The notes beneath the pieces were generated by a model, which saw only the letters and a list, made by a program, of their open reading frames with translations, searched no databases and was not told the DNA's origin. Below, in pieces: positions 3,001 through 23,300 of a stretch of 64,000 nt of DNA. Position 1 is the stretch's first letter. Each line of letters starts with the position of its first letter. The stretch is from Norana najaformis (Eukaryota > Annelida > Clitellata > Crassiclitellata > Hormogastridae): contig OZ029917.1 in assembly GCA_964023275.1 (NCBI GenBank), forward strand, positions 22,740,488 through 22,804,487, written 5' to 3'. The position numbers were made by a program, and so were the translations under genes.

Positions 3001-6000
3001 TTAGTTACATCAAATAACCTTGGCCCAAATGACTGCCACTGTGTTTGTGCATCTCATATGCAGAATACGGTAACTCATGATTCTGTTGTAATGTAATCTT
3101 AAGATAAACCATATATTATGATGTTATTCAGACAATTGCTGACCCAAAAATTGCTAGAGAAAAATTGGTTTTTATGATAGCCTATAGTAATGCTATCCTA
3201 AGTATATACTTGGGTACAGAAACAAATTAAATAACTTTTCTTAATTGGTGTCTCACAATGTGTATACACTTGTAAATATTTTACAGGTGTTACTCTGTGG
3301 GAACTGTTTACATATGGTGGAGTGCCTTATGAAGCCATCAATACAGGCAGAATTCCCTATGTACTGGAGAAAGGAGAGAGGCTTAATCAGCCCACAATTT
3401 GCACAATTGATGTCTATATGCTCATGATCAAATGTAAGTATGGAGGTGCCAATGAATTTCATCATTATGGTCAAGTGTTGCACGTTAGGGAAAACATAAT
3501 TGAGCCGATAACTCATGACCGAAATCAGAATGATTTCTTCCTTCTCTTAAAAATATTTAATATACGTTATAACTGAATATCAGTGTAATGTTGGTTCCTT
3601 TGTTACGGAAAATACTTTTAATGGGTTGAAAAGGTGCTGTAGCATTTTTTGGATATGTAACTTAAAAAAATAATATCAGTTATGATTATGAGAGGGAGCA
3701 GGAAGAGTTGCATATTAGTCTTGTGGTTAGTGTGTTTGACTGTCAGCCAACAGGCAAGAGTTCTAAATCTGACAAGGAGAGAAAGGTATTTCAGGATTTC
3801 TGTTTCCTTTAGTCAACTTGAATATAAAACATATACAGCAGCTGCACTTTGTAAATGGGAGGAGCAGACTGCAAGGGAGAGACCTCCATCATAAGCCAAG
3901 GCTAAAAGGCTAAGTAACTGAAGTCGCTAACACTGTCTGCTTAGCTGCCTATAGTCTGTGGGTTGACCTTCTAAAATAGCATTATGGGATTTTTATGAGG
4001 CAGATGGGGTATTATTATGAACATCATGTTTTTTATAGGTTGGGTGATAGATGCTGCAAGTCGTCCAGGCTTCCGCTACCTTGCAGAGGAATTTGCCAAA
4101 ATGGCCCGAGATCCAGGCAGATATCTTGTCATTGAAGTAAGCACAAAACAGGTTCACTTATTGGTAATAATAATCCAAGAACTTCTATAGAGCCACTGTT
4201 ATAATGCTGAAGGCATCAGCTGATGGTCGCTACTATGCATATCAAATTCCAGAGTGAGTCTGATCGAACATCAGGAAGGGAATCCCGGAAGACATGGAAA
4301 CAGCTTACGGACGAAATAAGTAGAGGAAAATACAGGTTTAGTTGAGATCTAAAGGCCAACAAAGACCGTGCAGAGCCAAAGAGTTCCAAAGTCTGGGGCC
4401 ATCAGCTGAACAAGAGCTGTCCTTGTCCTTGGTATGGTCAGAGTGATACAGTCAGAGGATCTGGTTGAGTAGTTACAGGTCTTGGGAGTCAGCATGAGAT
4501 GGAGGTAGTATAGTAATGTCCAGTTGGTTCATTGCTGTTCTTAGCAGAATACATTATTACCTGCAAACAGGGTGTGATATGTAGGGGCAGTGAGAAGTTC
4601 TCCCACTACTGATTAAGACTTTCTCTTTAAAGATGATTTTTTCCATACTTTTTGTTCCTATCCATAGCTCTTCCCCTTCCACTGCTGCCAACAACCACAG
4701 ATAGCATCTGATGTATGTGTCTTTTACCATTATTACTGTACAGCTACTAGTGTTGATAACAGTTTAATAGCAGAAGAGAACTATACATCAACAGCGTATT
4801 GTACAGTAATGAATTGGTTGCAAGTAGTCAGTAAGATGACCCTACCTAATTGCCTTTTTATTATCTAGTAGTGTTTTGAAACTCTGTACCAGTACCGGAC
4901 AAAAATACATTCACTTCTTTAGGTCCTCTTTTCAATTATTTATCTACTGGACACAATTTGCATACCAGATTTCCAGAAGTCACGACATCAAAATGCATAG
5001 CACTACCTTACACATCAATTGCTAGATCCAAGCAACATGAAAACTGATAATTTAAGCCTTGCACTACTATAATATTAGTTGCTGGGACCAGTTAAACATT
5101 CAGTTGATTTAACATATCACGCTTCATTCAGTTAATCAATCATTTTATGTCACACACAAAATGTGTATCCATCTTGAGATGCATGCAATTGGTGACAAGC
5201 AGTGGCTTTTTCATCCTAGGGCGACGAGCATATGCGTATATCTAGCCCGACATACGAAATGAAAGACTTGATACGATGTGTCAGCTTAGACTCTGGTGGG
5301 GCAGAGATGGTTACCACGGCCGATGATTATCTTCATCCGAGAGGTCGAATGCGTTCAACCGACTCACTAGGACGTTCAGATCATCTGGAAATGGTATGTT
5401 GATCTAGATTTTGGTATCTGTGGAACCTAAGGTGGTCCTATCCTGTATGGTAAAAAATAACCCCTAGGTTAACGATAATAATAATGATCTTATCATGTGC
5501 TAGTGCTTCAATATCTTTCTTTCAAGCAGGTTTGCATCCTAATCTCATATTGCGAAATAACTACAGTACTAATTAAATTAAATTAATAACTAGGCATAAG
5601 AAAATTTTGTAAAAACTACAGAGGCAATCTGAAACTTTACAGGTGTGACACTGTGTGTTTGTATAAAGCCCAAAGGTGTGTTTCCATTTCTGGACATTTA
5701 TTAGCCTAAAAACCAACTGAGGCATCGTGGATGGAAATGCGGTCAAATGAATGGGTACTGGAAGCGGCTGGAGTAGAGAGGAATCTTTTGAAGACAGTAA
5801 GGAAAAGGAAATTGATCTATTTTGGCCACATCATGAGGAAGGAGGGAACATGCATCGAGAAGGAGATAATACAGGGCACAATACCGGGAGGACGGAAAAG
5901 AGGAAGACCGAGAATAAACTGGTTGGGCAACATCAGGGCATGGACTGGGCTAACAATGGAGGAGATGCTCAGGCTGGTGGAAGACAGAGGACACTGGAGG

Positions 6001-8410
6001 AACATTGTGCATGATGCGGCCGAATCTCGGAACGAGGAAGGCTGAGAACAGAACAGAACAACTGAGGCACTTCAGCAAACTGGTTGTTCTATACTTAGGC
6101 ATGAATCCAACAATGCCATTCTTCTCTGTTCTGTGTCTCTTCCATTACTTGTCAGTTGTCCATTCCAGTTCCTTTGTTCATCATTCTTTCCTGCAGCTCA
6201 ATTCTTGGTCTTCCTGTAGGGTTCCTTTAACCTTAGTCTTTGTTTGTTCCCTCTGATGCAGTATGGTGCTACCATTTCCCACCAGCATTTGGTAAACTTC
6301 ACCATAGTAAAAATCACCACATTACTCATCTACAGTCCTGAGCCAGTTATCTTTTGTCAGGCTTTGTAAATGCTAGTAGTAATGATGATGATTAGGGCCC
6401 AACCTAGTGCATGATTACAAGGATGTGATACAGATCATGTAGTTGTTACCCTTTCGTGTAATCAGCAAAATTCCATGGAATGTCATATAATGCTGTGATT
6501 TTGGTATTTTATAGTATTATTTTGCTACTTTCTTGTTTTCATAAGTTTTACACATACTTTTCATAATTCCACACACAAAATACTAACTTACTAACTTGTG
6601 CTGTTGATTGGCAAATCCAATGATCACTTGTTCCTGCATACTGTGAACTGAAGGATGCTTGCAGTCTGTTGCCTCAGCGAGTCATAAACCTTTTTTATTA
6701 ATTAAAGTTAGCCTAGCATTTATAACAGATCGGTAAATCGTTGATCCATTGTGACATCGTCATCATTAATTAATGCGATTATGTTGGAAAATTTCAAGAC
6801 TGCAGAACATATTTCATGTGAACAGTGGGACTATCAGTACACAAAGGGCAGCCGATGGAGGGAAGCTCTTCTTTGTCTTGTAATGTTGCTGTTGATCGCA
6901 TGTGGAAAGAAACAATAAACAGACGTTTAAAGTCAAAACAGCACAACTTAAAGCGCAAACTAATTGAGAAGAAAAAACGCAAGAGGTCAAGAAGAAGACA
7001 ATTGGTGCGGATATGATGCAACGAAAATTGACAAATGTGGGTTGTTTAAACTTTCCGTGAAATTCCTGTGAAATTCGAGTTTCGTGGAAGCAACAGTTGT
7101 GTAATTCACACTTTTTTCGTGAATTAGGTTGGGAACTAATGGTGATAGTAGAATTTGGTAGTTATAGTATTATTAACTGTTATGATATTAGTAATATAAA
7201 GTATTATATTATTAATAATATGAACTATTACATGACACTTACTACCAACAATGATGGTAAAATGTACAAATAGAGTCCAAGTAAGATATAAGATATGACC
7301 ATTTTGTATAACTGTTTGTTAGGTTGCAGAGAGTAACATTGATGAGCTGGATGGTCCACCAGTAACAGCTTCAAGTCCACCAGTTTCAGCAGCTTCTGCT
7401 GCTGGACAGAGGCTGCGTAGGAACTCCAGAAATCGAGATGCCTGTAATTCGATATTGCGGCAGCATTCAGCACCAGATGGTCCGAAGCAGAAGAACAGTC
7501 GCTATTGTTCTGATCCTTGCAAAGACGCTTTGCAACAGCAGCTATTGATGCAAAATGCTGCTTTTGTCCCTCCTATCGTTGGCTCCGTTGGCTCCGGTAT
7601 CCATGCAGGTGACAATCATGATGGTGTCAAAAGCACCAGTGCACCTTCTATTAACAGAAACACTGGTGCCTGCATAAGCCCTAGTATGAGGGCAACATCT
7701 GGAAATATCTGTGAACCACCACTCAGTCCGAAATTGCCTGTTGAACAGCAACCAAGTGATGAAGAGGGTGACTACCTTCAGCCAGCAGGAGAAAGCAGGC
7801 CTGCAAATTATGTGGACCTGATGGAAAATACACAGGGTGAGTATCCAGGTTTTCTTAATGTAAACTAAACTTCTCCATGCATATCTATGCAGTTTAGCAA
7901 AACTGAAATTTGCCATTGTTCTTAGCAAGAGCTTGTAATGAACATAAGGGACGTTTAGGCCAAGTTACACCATCAGTACTTAACAAAAGTGCCACTTTTC
8001 CTTGGAGTTACTGTAATTTGTGCTGTTTCATTGTTTTGTAAACTTGCATAGCTTTTTTATCATTCACAGCTAATCTGAAAACAGTAATTGTCATTCAGGC
8101 TTGTCATTGCAATGTTACATTTTCCATAAGACAACCAGGTAAATTCTTGTTTCACAGAAATGTTTCTATTGTATTTATTTTCCATTGAACAGAAGAAGAT
8201 GGCAGATCACTTGATTATGCAGGCGCTAATCCCATGACATCCTTCATCTCCAATCCAGAATACTTTGAGGATATTTCCAGTGGAGCAATAGAAAAATTTC
8301 CTCTGACATGCCACAAGCGTTCAGGAAGCCAAGAATCAGCCAAGTATTACAATGAATTTTTCCCAAACACGCCCCCTTCAACATCACCTCAAAATTCGTC
8401 AGGCATATGA
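1..8410 (+). CDS. EGFR: Epidermal growth factor receptor (ErbB family) tyrosine kinase, 3' part
   Basis: Nine exons join in phase: 1-116, 479-542, 820-911, 1311-1386, 3287-3433, 4039-4136, 5220-5393, 7323-7836 and 8193-8410 (TGA 8408-8410), giving 498 codons. The gene is cut by the left edge inside the kinase hinge ([11 protein letters not shown], as in vertebrate EGFR ITQLMPFGCLL). Visible kinase parts in order are the catalytic loop HRDLAARN (codons from 512), DFG at 849-857, [10 protein letters not shown] at the end of the activation segment, SDVWSYGVTLWEL, and the ErbB-typical [17 protein letters not shown]. The tail follows. The product is a single-pass membrane receptor that phosphorylates its own tail and feeds Ras/MAPK, PI3K and PLC-gamma signalling. 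The extracellular, transmembrane and N-lobe parts lie off the window. Splice sites are standard GT-AG; the donor after 911 (gttttt) is weak. Family identity is certain; vertebrates split this gene into four ErbB paralogues, so the exact symbol is by family. Confidence 0.95.
1838..1912. repeat. Dispersed repeat, family D (copy 1)
   Basis: In the fourth EGFR intron. The stretch with gtaagtaagt, ttgttaacat, tccatcgactgag and gaattgtaggc is closely matched at 57405-57480 in a DNAJC13 intron. That copy continues leftward into a segment also seen at 21107-21180 and 51053-51130. It is probably the untranslated end of a retrotransposon; no coding part is attached here. The sequence to about 2500 may belong to the same insertion, but I cannot pair it. 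Confidence 0.5.
2519..2972. repeat. (ATA)n/(ATT)n microsatellite cluster
   Basis: Runs of ataata at 2519-2540 and 2655-2680, a mixed ATT/ATA block at 2707-2790, and TTA repeats near 2937-2972, all in one EGFR intron. The 2707-2790 block switches from attatt to aataat and back, so it can fold on itself. Confidence 0.85.
3700..3895 (+). repeat. Possible tRNA-derived SINE
   Basis: In an EGFR intron. The stretch at 3715-3780 reads like a decayed tRNA: a box A-like tggttagtgtg at 3724-3734, an anticodon-arm-like tttgactgtcagcc, and a box B-like gagttctaaatc about 45 bp after box A. The order and spacing fit a Pol III head, but box B departs from the consensus and I see no second copy in the window. 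Confidence 0.35.
4166..4560 (-). mobile_element. LINE fragment, CR1-like family A (3' part)
   Basis: In an EGFR intron. It aligns with 12255-12660 over about 400 bp. Shared blocks include gaacttct...gccactgt, ggttgctact-like sequence, caaattccag, the block agttgagatct(a/g)aaggc, cagagccaaagagttccaaag, and gaggatctggttgagtag...cttgggag. The 12-kb copy shows that the coding strand is -. This copy is badly decayed and has no open frame. Confidence 0.65.
5725..6058 (+). mobile_element. RTE-like LINE, 5'-truncated 3' end, with target-site duplications
   Basis: An open frame at 5725-6042 encodes the C-terminal end of an endonuclease-reverse transcriptase polyprotein: [57 protein letters not shown], then a stop. 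This Y-x-GH-x-MR...RGRPR-x-x-W...W+ pattern is typical of the far C-terminus of RTE/BovB-like elements. The copy ends in a short aacag repeat. It is flanked by an exact 11-bp duplication, CAACTGAGGCA, at 5714-5724 and 6059-6069, the mark of target-primed insertion. The open frame and intact duplication suggest a fairly recent insertion into this EGFR intron. Confidence 0.88.
6825..7016 (+). other. Unassigned open stretch with basic C-terminal end
   Basis: Inside the last long EGFR intron, 63 codons end in a strongly basic run ([13 protein letters not shown], then [11 protein letters not shown]) and a stop at 7014-7016. No splice junction joins it to EGFR. I do not recognise the protein. It could be a remnant of a mobile-element gene or chance coding in purine-rich DNA. 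Confidence 0.2.
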
Positions 8411-8666
8411 AGGACTAAAGTATCAGACTGATGAATATATGTGACGCCGGCCAAGAAAAGGGACCACTTGTCTCAAATGGACTTATCACCAGTTTCTATA
8501 AGCTGATACTATAAGGAAGTCAGGGTAAAAGTTTCAGGCTCATTGGTCCAAAATTCATGCATCTATTTTCATTTTCACTTTCAACATTGTAAAATATCAA
8601 TTTTCTGCAAATTGCGTTTGAAAATTGACATACATCTAACTTAAAGATTGTTTGCATGTTAGTATT

Positions 8667-8848
8667 TTTATTTACAGATCTAATTCAGTTATACAAAAAC
8701 TACAGAAACACCAAATTTCAGCCAAATATGAACAAATTTGAACAAATTATGGTTAGTTTCTTGAAGCCGAGCAACGTTAATATTTTACAACTGAAAAGAC
8801 GCTATGCATTTCTAAAACGTTCAGCTACCGGAATCAATAGATTTTATT
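8667..8848 (-). promoter_or_regulatory. AATAAA poly(A) signal candidates for the antisense gene
   Basis: On the - strand AATAAA occurs at 8848-8843, 12 nt past the TAG of the antisense gene, and at 8672-8667, about 190 nt past it. The more distal one leaves a usual 3' UTR length. The 450 bp between the two convergent stop codons (8410 and 8860) holds no other feature. No clear AATAAA is seen for EGFR on the + strand here. Confidence 0.35.
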
Positions 8849-8859
8849 GGAAGTCACAC

Positions 8860-10839
8860 CTAATCATTATTTTCTTGAGCTCTACGTTTAGGGCACATAA
8901 ATAATCCGTTTTTGTTTTTTCTGTTAATATGCCCAGTCTCCATGCAAAATCCACAAGTAGGTGGTGCCCGACGAGCCATCACCAAGGATGCTTCTGACAA
9001 TGTTTGCAAGTTCTCTAAAGTCCCTACAGTTCTTTCATGATCAGCTGATGTTGTTTGAGTTATGGCATCATCATAGGGCCTAGGGCAAAGAATATCTGGT
9101 TGCTGAGGATCCTGAGGAATATGAATTTGTTGTGCATAATCAAAACCGATCTGCAGCATTTTTTTGAAAGAGCAGGGATTGTTTCTTCCAAGTTCTTTTG
9201 TAGGGTGATCTTTAATGTTCTGTTGAGACGTAAACACCCTTTGCCTATAATCAGCTCTGGATATGGTCACAGAATCCAAATGACTACTGATTTTAGCGGT
9301 TCGTTTCTTCTTTTCTTCCTCACTCATGTTTGACATGCTGGCAACTGATGTTATTAGCGAGTGACAAGTTCCACATAAATCAGATCTTGGTCTTTGCAAC
9401 ATAAGATTTGGCAGTGCTTCCTTCCATATTTTACGGAATGATTTGCATGACGTTGGTCTTCTTTCGGTCAACTTGCAAGCTTCTGCATACTGTCTGTACA
9501 TACCCTGGACACTGAAATGACTAGGCAATAAAATAAGATCCGGTGACCTGAAAGCTGGAACTCGACCTGGAAGAACCAGTCCGTGGTTTTCTCCAAATTT
9601 AATCAGAAAGTGAACAACCTCAGAACACTGTTCTTTACTCATAACATGATGCTGTTTCTTTCCTGTGTTGCCATGATAAACAGGAGATAATCCAGCTTCC
9701 TTCAGTCTGCGTTTCAATCTCTTGTACCTCTTTTCACCGATATTATACAGGAAAAAGTTGACAGCTTTGCACACACTTAACCCATCAAACCTAAACACTG
9801 AATGTGTCATACAACGGTGTGTTTTCTTCTTGTGCGTCCGCAGAACATTCTCACCAGCGGCACAGAAAGATCGCAGCTGACCAACGATTAGATCGTTCAA
9901 AGGATTTTGATGTAGCTCGTTGAAATAATCAAGTTCTGCAATCTGCAACTGATGCTCAAAAACCATACTTGCATTAAGCTGTGTCGTACACATGGATTTG
10001 TTGGGACCATGCTGACACTGACATCCTTTTGTCAAAAATGCTTCAATCTTATTTATATCTGGTAATTGGGCATCAAATGCTGCAGCAATGTATGAAGTTT
10101 TCTCTTCATCCCGGAAGACTGGAACAGGATCTGCATCTGGTTCATCTTGCAGCACTTCTTCGGTTGGACTATTCTAAGAAACAAAATGAGGAATAAAATC
10201 AATGCATGAAAAAAGTTAGAAATTCTTTTATAATTGTTGTCTTCATTCATTCATTCATTCATTCAAGGAATCTATATAGCGCCCCTTCAAGGAGGCCTGC
10301 TCAGAGGCCCTCCCAACCCATTCCTCAGAGTAGGCCCCGCAACAGAAAGGGCATGATGCTGCCCGATGACCTACCGTCTTTAATGTAAATGTAAGTGATT
10401 GAACCGTCTTAAAATTAAAAGAGACTGACAATGGAAATAAAATTTATGTTAGAAGAAATTGGCCTTTAAGTTCAAGGACGGCAACTGGTTAATCTCAGTG
10501 TAGGAGAATTGCGATTTTGATTTGAAGTGCTGTCGATTGATGCGTGATGCTTTATTACAGCGGCGCTATAGAAGTGCTGAGATTTGATTAGATTAGGTCA
10601 GGGTGAACATTTACTTTCTATTAACATGTAGTTGTATGCTAGCTACTAAAATTTACCTCACTGACTTGTGATTCAGCAGCCGTTTCGACCTCAGAATGCT
10701 CATCACAAGATTCTTCACTGTCACAATCTTTAGCTGTAGTGAAATAATCTTGCAACACATTAGAAACTTCCTCTGTAGATAATTTTAAATTCAACAAATT
10801 CGCAATTTCTAGAAAAGTTTTGTCAGCGTTGACCGCCAT
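8860..10839 (-). CDS. Two-exon transposase-related hypothetical protein, 498 aa
   Basis: Exon 1 is 10839-10657 (61 codons, ATG in a good context, donor GAG|gtaaat). The 483-bp intron ends in tttcttag, and exon 2 is 10173-8860 (437 codons plus TAG); both junctions are phase 0. Exon 1 is acidic. Exon 2 has a Cys/His stretch KGCQCQHGPNKSMC, a basic segment KKKTHRC...KRYKRLKRRLKEAG, then RPRSDLCGTCHSL. About 70 residues on is GFDYAQQIHIPQDPQQP, and near the end a zinc-knuckle-like CGFCMETGHINRKN...FMCPK. From memory, the RSDLCxxC and FDYAQQ-H-P..PxQP blocks recall a family of transposon-derived animal proteins in which a catalytic core follows the second block; here that core is absent and the tail follows directly. 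No frame break exists over 498 codons. It could be a non-autonomous transposase derivative or a domesticated gene. It lies tail-to-tail with EGFR. Confidence 0.7.
10237..10390 (-). repeat. LINE/SINE 3' end with (ATTC)n tail, in the antisense gene's intron
   Basis: A run of attc repeats is followed by ctatatagcgccccttcaagga and ctcagaggccctcccaaccca. This matches 53466-53510 (tatatagcgccccttcaag...ctcagaagcgctcccaaacca). Reversed, it is the same ggcgctatata end seen on the + strand at 49480, so it is a CR1/L2-like 3' end in - orientation with a simple-repeat tail. It lies wholly within the intron of the antisense gene. Confidence 0.65.
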
Positions 10840-11251
10840 TATTTCCCTTTAAACTTTCGCGTAACGGCCACTCTGCGACCTCGGTATATGTTTGCTAAGA
10901 AAATAGTTCCTCACTTGAAAATTTGTAATTATAAAAGACGCAAGTTTTATCTGTCTATGAAAATTTACCTATTCCATTTTTAAAAATTACATTTAACAGA
11001 AATATTCATTAAAGTTAAAATTAATAAATATGTGATTTATATAAATCCGAAAATACCGAAGTAGATTCAAACGCTTGGCAACATGCTGGGCGACAAGTGG
11101 GCCCTTTTTTACCCTGTCTGTACCCATGTCTTTAACTGCAGATTCTGGTTTTAAAATAGCAGGCGCAGTAATACCAGGTATAGTAAAATGAAGCTGAAAT
11201 GCAGACGCATTCATTGGATACAAAAACCGAAATTCAGACTGATGAATATAT

Positions 11252-12239
11252 ATTCTTTTAAGCACTGAAGAAGGCAAAAATCTGTGTTTCTAACTGTCCT
11301 TATAGTTCAATGTCGAGTCCAATTTCATTTAATGCTGAATGTCTTTGCATTCACTACTGCCATTGAAACATATACTGGATTTGATTCTGGATAAAGATTT
11401 GTAGTTTTGCATTTTTATTCATGTCCTAATTATAGGCATTTGTTGCAGTTCTTTGGAATTCATCCGGTTTTCTAGTGTAACTGTTATCGCTGATGCCAAC
11501 CAGCTTTTTAGTGATAATAGCATTTCTGGTAAACTTCATGTGTATGTGGTTACTGGATGACACAAAAAGCTGCTTTAGGACAGAAGATCAAACACTTCAC
11601 ATTTGTGAAAGGCCAACTAATCCTAGCTTGGCCACCACTTATTGACATACATAATTTTATCACTTGACTTATCTCAAATGTTGTGCCATTTGCTTGTATG
11701 TGTCATAGTTTAATTATCATCATTGTCATAATAATCCGTTTACGCTCTTAATTAGAATAATTAAAACAATGATGTTGGTGGTAAAAAGGATTATATGATA
11801 ATCCATGTGCAAACCCTGATCACTTAATCCGACCTTGAGCAAAATCTCTGATTAAGCACTGCTGTGATTGTTGGGCAGTTGATCAAATATGCCTATGATG
11901 TGATAGCAAAACAGATTATTAACTACAGATGTTGTATCAAAAACAGAGGACGTTGCATATTATTCGTGTTTAGTGAACCTGCTAACATGCTCAAACATGT
12001 TTGAGATAAAAACATTTACTGCATGTACTCGTATATAAATCGAGAAATTCTGGACAATTTTGAAAGTCCAACTTGGGTCAAGCCAAGAATGCTGGACATC
12101 CTTATGAGATCAAAGGACATATCAATGAGAGGACACATCCACCGAATAGTTGTTTCAGCACAGGCTTTGCTTTAAACAGCAGCTTTAGTCAGAAGGCAGA
12201 GAGGGACCCTTGTATGTTATAATAACATAACGGTAATTA
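11252..12239. other. Intergenic stretch, no feature recognised
   Basis: No frame with recognisable protein similarity, no RNA gene and no paired repeat seen. It may hold the displaced remainder of the EGFR 3' UTR if the 8441-11233 block is an insertion; the sequence cannot decide this. Confidence 0.4.
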
Positions 12240-20319: not shown

Positions 20320-23300
20320 GTGACAGCAATGGCTTATCCACTGAAGGATAATCATGATTTGGCATGCTACTTCATTACCAAGCATTCATGGAAAGGAAAG
20401 TAAGTTCTGCCAAATGATGCTTTTAGATAATTTTGTTATGCATCTGATAAAACGTGTGCCTTTATGAAGTTCTTAAAATGTGCCATATAAATCAGAATTG
20501 GACCAATTACATCATCAAAAATTCAATTAAATTACATTTACTTTTGTATATGGTTAGGTAAATTACAATTACACCTTGCTCAACCTTGGTGAAATAACAC
20601 AACTACATTAGTGTCAATTACAATTACTTTTCAGTTGCATCTTAAGTTTATAACTAAGTACTGCATTACTGCCCGCTAGCACTTACTAGTACAGTGCAGT
20701 TCAGTTAAGATGAAAGACGGGGTACCAGAGTAAACATTTCGTCTTAACCGAATTTCCTATTAACCGTTAGGCAATGGTTAGCACAACATGCCAGCCAGAA
20801 ACACATTATGGCTACATGTCTTACCATGCAGCAGCAAATGACGCATATGCATGCACGTGTATAGACCTATGCATTACGCATATATGATTGTGGTAGGCTG
20901 CTGTTATTTATAACTATTATGTATCATTAATGAAAACTTAAGGTTTTTGTTGACAATAACTAATTGTAACTAACTTTCAAGCTTCAGACGGTAACAATAA
21001 ATGAAGTAAAAACTTAAACTGAAGAGGCAGTGCTGTAACTTGAACTAATATGAAAACTAGCTTTACTTATAATGAAAATAATATTAATAATAATTAGTAA
21101 TTTCTAATACACCAGTATCTAATGCACATGCCTTCAACCAATGGCACCCCAAAGCCAAGCTGTAATCAGGTCAAGTGCTTACATAAGGATAAATGTTAAA
21201 ATACATAACATAATGAAAACCACAACGAAAGAAAAATGTTAATGGAACTGCTTGAAATTACATCTCACTTAAGTTTGGATTTGTAAATTTGGAGAAGATC
21301 ATGGCATCAGTGGTGTGCCCCTTTCTGAAGCGTTGCCATTTCAGTGACGCTTGTCTTCAGGCTATGTGTAGCCCAAAGTTTAATTGGTGAAGATCAACCT
21401 CCACTGTCCAGGTCCATGTGAGCCTTGAATGTCTGACCGGTCCTCAGGAGGCCAGAAGTCAAGTCTCGGGGTGCTCAGCAAAGCACCCAAACACCTGGAG
21501 TCTTCTTGTTTTGAACATCTCTGAAACCAGAGTCTGTCTCATGCACCTGTATGTTTCTGCATTGGTGATGTGCACAGTACGTAAAATTCACATTCTCCTC
21601 AATCACCATTGTTGGAAGGCATCTAGCTTCTTCTTTAGGGCCACTGTGAGCATCCAGTTCTCGGCTTCATAAAAGAACACTGGTAGTATGTAAGATGTGA
21701 ACAGGCTGATTATTGTGTCCAGTTGGACATTCATACTCCAAATTCCCTGATTGAGGCTGTTCTTACAGTCACTTGTAACTGCTGTTTGAAGATAGGCCTC
21801 GGGCTCACTGCTGCTATCAGCCTTGATGTTCAGTTCAAGGTAGGTGAATTTTCTTACATTCAACTGTGTTTCCTGAAACCGGTATGTGATCCATAACTGG
21901 GGTGGTTCCACCACTGTCTGGATCTTGTTTTTTTCCCTGTTGATCTCCATTCCAAACTGGTGTTTTTTGCAGTCCAGTATTTCCAACATCTGGACCAGGG
22001 TCTTCAGAATTTCAGTGAGAAGGGTTACACCACTGGCAAAGTCCAGGTCATAAAATATCTTCAGTCCAGTGCATTCTGCTATATATTCTTTGGTGACAGT
22101 CTGCTGTAAGGTCTGGTGACAAAATAGAGTTGGAGCAAGTTTGCAGCCCTGTCTTACCTTCCACACTAAGCCAATCAGAAGTCATACCATCAATTTGTAC
22201 AGCATTTTTTGTGTTGGTGTAAAGCTCTCTTATGTTGTCCATAATCTTTTTGGGAAACCCAAGGGAGAGGAGCAATTTCTAGAGAGCTGTGAGATCTATG
22301 GAATCAAAAGCCTCCTTCAGGTGTACATGAGCAGTCCACAACAGCTGCCTGTACTCACTTCTTGACTGAATCAGGCTGTTCAGCTTGAAAATACAATCCA
22401 CAGTGGATCTACCAGGAGTAAAGCCTCTCTGTTTTATGACGTCTTGGCATCGCAACTTTTTGGAAATGTTCCAGAGTGTCAGGCGTTGGACCATTTAATG
22501 GTAAACCTTTTGTCAGAGATCCTCAGGCCAGTGATGTTTTAGCTGTGCCACTTTCAAAAACATATTTTGAAATAATATTCTCACTGCGTAGAGACTTGTT
22601 GTCTTAGGAGCTAAACTTGACCATGCATGCATCACTATTTGTTTTTGACTCTACGCACCTGTGAATAAGTTGGTTCCCACATTACTTAGCTTTCTGGGTG
22701 CTGTTTAAATAAGGAGTCTATGATTGCAATTATGATTAATAATAATAATAAATTTTGCAAGAAATTCCACAGTGAAATAATGCTGAAGGTATCAGTTCGT
22801 GGTGTGTAAACCAAAACCCAAAATGCAGATCTAGTTTTACCTTGAAAACTCTAGAATGGAAACATTCTTTAACTGGAAAAATGAAGTTATGTAAAAACAC
22901 CCCAGAAAAACTTGAACAACTTAACTGAGAGTGACTAAAACTCAGAATTTAATAATTAAAATCAAAGGTTTTAGTTATGTGCTCAAACTTTAGCTAAGAC
23001 TCAATAAATAATGATGACTAGTTGTGAGTAAAATTCATAATGTAAAAGTATGCAATAAAATATGTAATAACTAAAACTGAGAACTAGACTATCACTAGCC
23101 TGTTCTTAATTTAGGCTGGCAAGCAGTGCGTTTGAGAGATACTTGGAAAGTTCTACATAACTGTTCATAATTTAATAGTTGTTTGAAAATTATTAAAGCT
23201 GAAAGTTCAGAATACAGCACTAAACCCTAACTTTATATTTCAGTTGCCGATTAACTAAAAATCATTACCTGTGGTTAAAGATATCCCCATTAGCTATTGT

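Follow-up and report, generated by a model that had tools for sequence, protein, structure and literature searches.

Why should an EGFR-like gene be followed, a few bases beyond its stop codon, by a perfect 18-bp direct repeat that brackets a gene on the opposite strand? The question is raised by a 64,000-nt stretch of the annelid Norana najaformis (GCA_964023275.1, contig OZ029917.1, positions 22,740,488 to 22,804,487), referred to here as the window, in which the 18-mer TCAGACTGATGAATATAT occurs in two exact plus-strand copies, at 8423-8440 and 11234-11251. A preliminary description, made from the letters alone, had placed the two copies at these positions, and our searches of the window and of the assembly confirmed them and revealed no others. 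With up to three mismatches allowed, the window still contains two sites, against a mean of 0.14 in shuffled sequence, and an exact search of the 608-Mb assembly returned this pair only. As the shuffle mean is so low and no further exact copy is present assembly-wide, the repeat is not a chance occurrence in the assembly; the many unrelated genomic occurrences that the preliminary description had named as a ground for doubt were looked for in the same 608 Mb, and none was found beyond the two. The EGFR label was borne out for one upstream kinase exon (best match 9p9u_A, E = 1.8e-36), and the reported 13-bp spacing between the stop codon and the first 18-mer copy agrees with the last plus-strand frame, which stops at 8410. 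Two frames elsewhere in the window resemble, by eye, remnants of non-LTR retrotransposon proteins, one at 5710-6045 (plus strand) inside the EGFR-like gene region and one at 21603-22181 (minus strand).

The idea that the block between the repeats entered as a unit proved right, in that the block is a mobile element with many copies in the genome. Used as a query, the block 8300-11400 retrieved many near-identical genomic copies, and alignment of their ends, a check that had been suggested at the outset, showed that the complete ones start with GTGACGCCGGCC and carry its inverted repeat at the other end; this repeat is 32 bp long and free of mismatches in L009, the long reference copy. Flanks were read in 22 of 23 two-ended copies, and 19 of these are bordered by a 4-bp target-site duplication (TSD), the left flank ending in the same four bases with which the right one begins (18 ATAT, 1 AGAT); this count includes L031, which has its flanks in common with L020 through tandem duplication. 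Two-ended copies whose 4-bp flanks do not match are L013 (CTAT/ATAT), L014 (TTTA/AATT), and L027/L056 (GAGT/AGTT). The tandem pair L031 and L020 (C6:23344578-23350225) has a spacing of ~2.9 kb, and its first copy carries a further internal deletion. Searches with each terminal 300 bp yielded at least 32 insertions, at least nine of them one-ended; these numbers derive from the best 40 candidates per end (the weakest ~68-79% alike) and are probably complete for close copies and formally lower bounds. Internal deletions are common in the family: a 1412/1548 deletion is found in both L017 and L018, and L017 has an additional 364/1256 deletion. The window block is one copy of this DNA transposon, which has terminal inverted repeats (TIRs), a 4-bp TSD, and a DUF7869 transposase. 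Its features in the window are as follows.

8423-8440, plus strand: first copy of the 18-mer, which is left flank with the target-site ATAT at its end (8437-8440)
8441-8472, plus strand: left TIR, beginning GTGACGCCGGCC, 32 bp; its right partner is missing in the window copy
8441-11235, no strand assigned: transposon copy, short form, matching the 2883-bp reference L005 from position 1 through 2797, with the final 86 bp missing in the assembly
8860-10173, minus strand: second exon of the transposase-derived gene (437 codons and a stop codon), middle missing
9096-9097, minus strand: junction (approximate) of the in-frame 747-bp (249-codon) deletion, common to the two-ended copies L004-L008 and to L028
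10174-10656, minus strand: intron, by splice motifs
10657-10839, minus strand: exon 1, 61 codons, from ATG
11233-11236: proposed false junction between the two haplotypes, at the second 18-mer copy
11234-11251, plus strand: second copy of the 18-mer, consisting of TC in common with the transposon, 12 extra flank bases, and ATAT

The gene inside the block can be read against the long form of the transposon (3,629 bp in L009), which has two exons for a 747-aa protein. The second exon of the long form matches Pfam DUF7869 (PF25273, E = 2.8e-15); among solved structures, searched by sequence, there was no convincing match to the long-copy transposase (best E = 0.83), and a literature search on DUF7869 found no paper. 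Of the eight long copies that were examined, 747-748 codons are retained in five, two are disrupted, and the start motif was not found in the remaining one. The short form, including the window copy, has lost 747 bp (249 codons) from the middle of the transposase in frame. The resulting 498-aa frame is intact in four of the six short copies (the window, L004, L006, and L007), and the window protein gave no DUF7869 match in the Pfam search. Both splice motifs were found in 13 copies, with the window copy among them; the intron belongs to the transposon. The preliminary description had seen a complete two-exon minus-strand gene here: the two exons are indeed present (498 aa when spliced), and the completeness had to be given up because the gene is an in-frame deletion form of the 747-aa transposase without a DUF7869 match. 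What was described is thus a transposase gene that has lost its middle part. In its structure, the short form resembles deletion-derivative repressors such as Drosophila KP. Within the transposon intron, at 10241-10375, a CATT repeat is followed by a GC-rich stretch, which may be a small nested repeat, and one of the one-ended copies, L029, is cut at the CATT repeat of this intron.

The left end of the window element, with its TIR, is present, and the right end is cut. Alignment with complete copies shows the element running only to position 2797 of L005 (2883 bp in full), a loss of 86 bp, and a copy of the opposite (left) flank directly adjoins the cut, where no poly-A is present. The 18-mer at this end is made up of 2 bases common to transposon and flank (TC), 12 bases of left flank, and the 4 bases of ATAT. 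A copy of the opposite flank is found at the cut in five of the nine listed one-ended copies, with lengths of 18 bp in the window, 48 bp in L017, 66 bp (two differences) in L018, 51 bp in L025, and 76 bp in L026. In these five the copied flank begins at the ATAT next to the intact end, with L018 off by a single base, and junction homology at the cut is 0-2 bases. Among the other one-ended copies, L029 has a plain TSD without extra flank, L057 (older, ~96.5% alike) has no flank repeat at the cut, L028 lies in a TGTA microsatellite and gives no sign of the 149 bases predicted for it by the rule described below, and L047 runs into an N gap. N gaps lie in or beside repeats at L047 and L067. The cut of L018 is 2 bp from the position of the 364/1256 deletion junction of L017. 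At L011 (C3, right end near 39366558), the terminal CAC is replaced by what appears to be a single extra flank base before ATAT; this loss follows the same logic at a scale of 3 bp, too short to count.

A chimera formed from two haplotypes would give the same picture, and we therefore turned to LTR retrotransposons, located via the integrase family, as a control. In a first family, seven two-LTR elements were counted; their two LTRs are alike at the ends, and none of the 14 outer ends was lost. A second family comprised 13 two-LTR and nine solo copies, paired by hand, of which two had no match to the outer 5' end. At one of them, L077/L078 (C5), ~403 bp of the 5' LTR is lost, and the flank beyond the intact 3' LTR is repeated there exactly over 90 bp. 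The flank-copy pattern is hence not specific to one class of mobile element, being found in a DNA transposon and in one LTR retrotransposon, and its frequency is one in 29 LTR copies (two families) and five in at least 32 transposon insertions. Since the same pattern occurs at an LTR retrotransposon, the transposase is not its cause, and gap repair after excision is not its general cause because a retrotransposon does not excise. A young LTR family (L063, L064, L067, and L068) was dropped as a control, its end being a tandem-repeat region with an N gap. In the other copy of the second family that had no outer 5' match, L079 (C3:18469000-18469700), the 5' LTR has lost ~423 bp and adjoins a piece from the 3' part of that LTR in inverted orientation.

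The length of the copied flank follows a rule. For each locus, the empty site was aligned to the sequence holding the element by edit distance with unit costs, matches being taken first, and the number of flank letters placed over the lost end served as the prediction. Such letters find their matches, in order, within the element end at no added alignment cost, and their count is fixed by both sequences and the lost length (t, in base pairs). The observed extra flank is the copied flank minus the TSD, for which 5 bp was assumed in the LTR element. Apart from the window, the loci lie near C3:41212478, C3:25418978, C5:30457156, C2:34546892, and C5:1033586. The six loci compare as follows.

Window: t = 86, observed 12, predicted 18
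L017: t = 221, observed 44, predicted 46
L025: t = 216, observed 47, predicted 47
L026: t = 284, observed 72, predicted 71
L077 (LTR element): t = 403, observed 85, predicted 86
L018: t = 366, observed 62, predicted 62, assuming a parent with the 364/1256 deletion of L017

Observed and predicted lengths correlate at 0.998, and the true assignment alone of 720 permutations has so small a summed error. The correlation remains 0.998 without L018 (1 of 120 permutations) and without both L018 and the window (1 of 24). Measured against the undeleted reference (t = 1257), L018 has 62 observed versus 288 predicted bases, and the six-locus correlation drops to 0.39. When element ends were shuffled, mean predictions were 21, 53, 54, 78, 82, and 99, with a summed error of 64 versus 10 for the real ends, and a dynamic-programming alignment returned the identical six predictions at the cost of a plain deletion. 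The window is the worst fit of the six (12 observed versus 18 predicted), for which a local AT run may be responsible. In assembly coordinates, each of the six elements has lost its higher-coordinate end, irrespective of the strand of the element, and five of the six losses are shorter than 500 bp outright (86, 216, 221, 284, and 403 bp), with the 366 bp of L018 depending on the assumed parent. Loci outside the length test were L028 (microsatellite flank), L047 (N gap), L057 (older), L029 (no extra flank), L058 (older, 11 bp lost), L011 (3 bp lost), and L079 (inverted LTR piece). A segment length of a few hundred bases is usual for consensus programs, and a directional alignment rule combined with a segment-wise consensus explains the lengths, the side, and the sizes of the losses. 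We know of no integration or repair chemistry that predicts both the length rule at six loci and the one-sidedness.

Very probably, then, the repeat arose through a haplotype-switch error in the consensus at a heterozygous and otherwise ordinary transposon insertion. A cut-and-paste transposon would have inserted in the usual way at an ATAT behind the stop codon of the EGFR-like gene on one chromosome, with the other chromosome empty. During assembly or polishing, reads from the empty chromosome would have been aligned to a draft carrying the transposon, and with equal gap costs, flank letters could be placed over the transposon end free of cost wherever they match by chance, at about one per four to seven bases. 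A consensus segment ending inside the transposon would then follow the empty-chromosome reads, turning the last 86 bp into 12 flank bases, while the neighboring segment would follow the other reads, so that the 18-bp direct repeat would be the trace of a switch whose false junction is at 11233-11236. What is observed comprises the transposon with its regular 4-bp TSD, the loss of one end, the recurrence of the pattern (including at an LTR element), and the length rule; the heterozygosity of the insertion and the consensus step as the cause are what we infer from them. In form, and roughly in length, the junctions at the six loci are what a mixture of two haplotypes would produce. The 0-2 bases of homology at the five transposon junctions and the N gaps in or beside repeats at L047 and L067 also speak for this reading. 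Assembly errors with sequence between two haplotypes have been described at the breakpoints of heterozygous structural variants, in the part of PMC8590762 that treats them. Against a haplotype switch stand the poor fit of the window itself, the dependence of L018 on an assumed parent, the plain cuts of L029 and L057, the lack of the predicted 149 bases at L028, the N gap at the end of L047, the inverted LTR piece at L079, and the first LTR family, with 0 of 14 ends lost. If the error reading is right, the 18-bp duplication would not be a feature of the genome; the transposon is one, and its insertion downstream of the EGFR-like gene is routine and probably polymorphic.

Two other readings, one-ended transposition and interrupted gap repair, seemed strongest at first, and both were weakened by the LTR control and by the match of copied lengths to the alignment prediction. 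In one-ended integration, which we now regard as very unlikely, the transposase or integrase would join only the intact end, at a normal target, the free 3' end of the target would be extended by tens of bases with the target as template, and end joining of this extended end to a nibbled element end would leave truncated elements with duplications of variable length. The structure of the five transposon copies and of the LTR element agrees with this, the same anatomy being expected, as do the start of the duplications at the ATAT of the intact end and the 0-2 bp of junction homology at the five transposon copies; there is also a precedent in Helitrons with variable TSDs of ~7-19 bp and some of up to 443 bp, according to the account of them in PMC3627910. 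Yet one-ended integration offers no reason why the copied length should track the number of flank letters that can be embedded in the lost end or why all six losses should be at the higher coordinate. It is similarly improbable, in our estimate, that the integrase-like enzymes of mobile elements in animals should fairly often finish a single end only, with host repair then leaving the 18-90 bp of target duplication beside the trimmed DNA transposons and LTR elements of this genome.

Still less credit is due to an interrupted gap repair after excision, in which one broken end would briefly copy the empty homologue and the other the element before end joining. The frequent internal deletions of the transposon family would suit it, and gap filling with template switching has been described at animal DNA transposons (as reported in part of PMC8277862), but it is inapplicable to an LTR retrotransposon, which undergoes no transposase excision, and leaves the length rule and the side of loss unexplained. 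The preliminary description had taken the 18-mer for a duplication made at entry that calls for an unusual mechanism, and proposed a true 18-bp TSD of a non-standard mobile element, either recombinase-like or LINE-mediated; we consider this the least plausible of all, close to negligible. In its favor, the repeat is exact and was not found elsewhere in the assembly. At its other sites, though, the element ends in TIRs, with a 4-bp TSD in 19 of 22 two-ended copies read, and the right-hand 18-mer in the window begins within the element, 86 bp before its true end, so that the 18-mer does not border two complete ends. Twelve of its letters are extra flank at the cut end, in a pattern also seen at five further loci, among them a single LTR element; there is no poly-A at the cut, and the intron is the element's own. 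A long TSD of an unknown element was rejected, two-ended copies having a 4-bp TSD.

For other genomes, the haplotype-switch reading implies that flanking direct repeats beside truncated elements in collapsed assemblies can be consensus errors. It also offers a simple test, the comparison of the length of the copied flank with the number of flank bases that can be embedded in order in the missing element end, which could be applied in work where assemblies are the basis for proposing one-ended transposition or unusual target duplications.

Among known systems, close in anatomy are the one-ended Helitrons CRe-1/2/3, whose description in PMC3627910 likewise includes truncated copies and duplications of variable length that begin at the normal target; they belong to another element class, and here the duplication length obeys an alignment rule and an LTR element is affected too. 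As far as TSD features are given in the same source, Sola2-type elements have in common with the window family an AT-rich 4-bp TSD, TIRs, and a transposase gene, a likeness that rests on the AT-rich 4-bp TSD, the transposase being placed by Pfam in DUF7869 (PF25273). With the error class described with Inspector (PMC8590762), the window would have in common a sequence intermediate between two haplotypes at the breakpoint of a large insertion, a pattern that here recurs across unrelated insertions; the passages describing that class do not contain the length rule for the copied flank.
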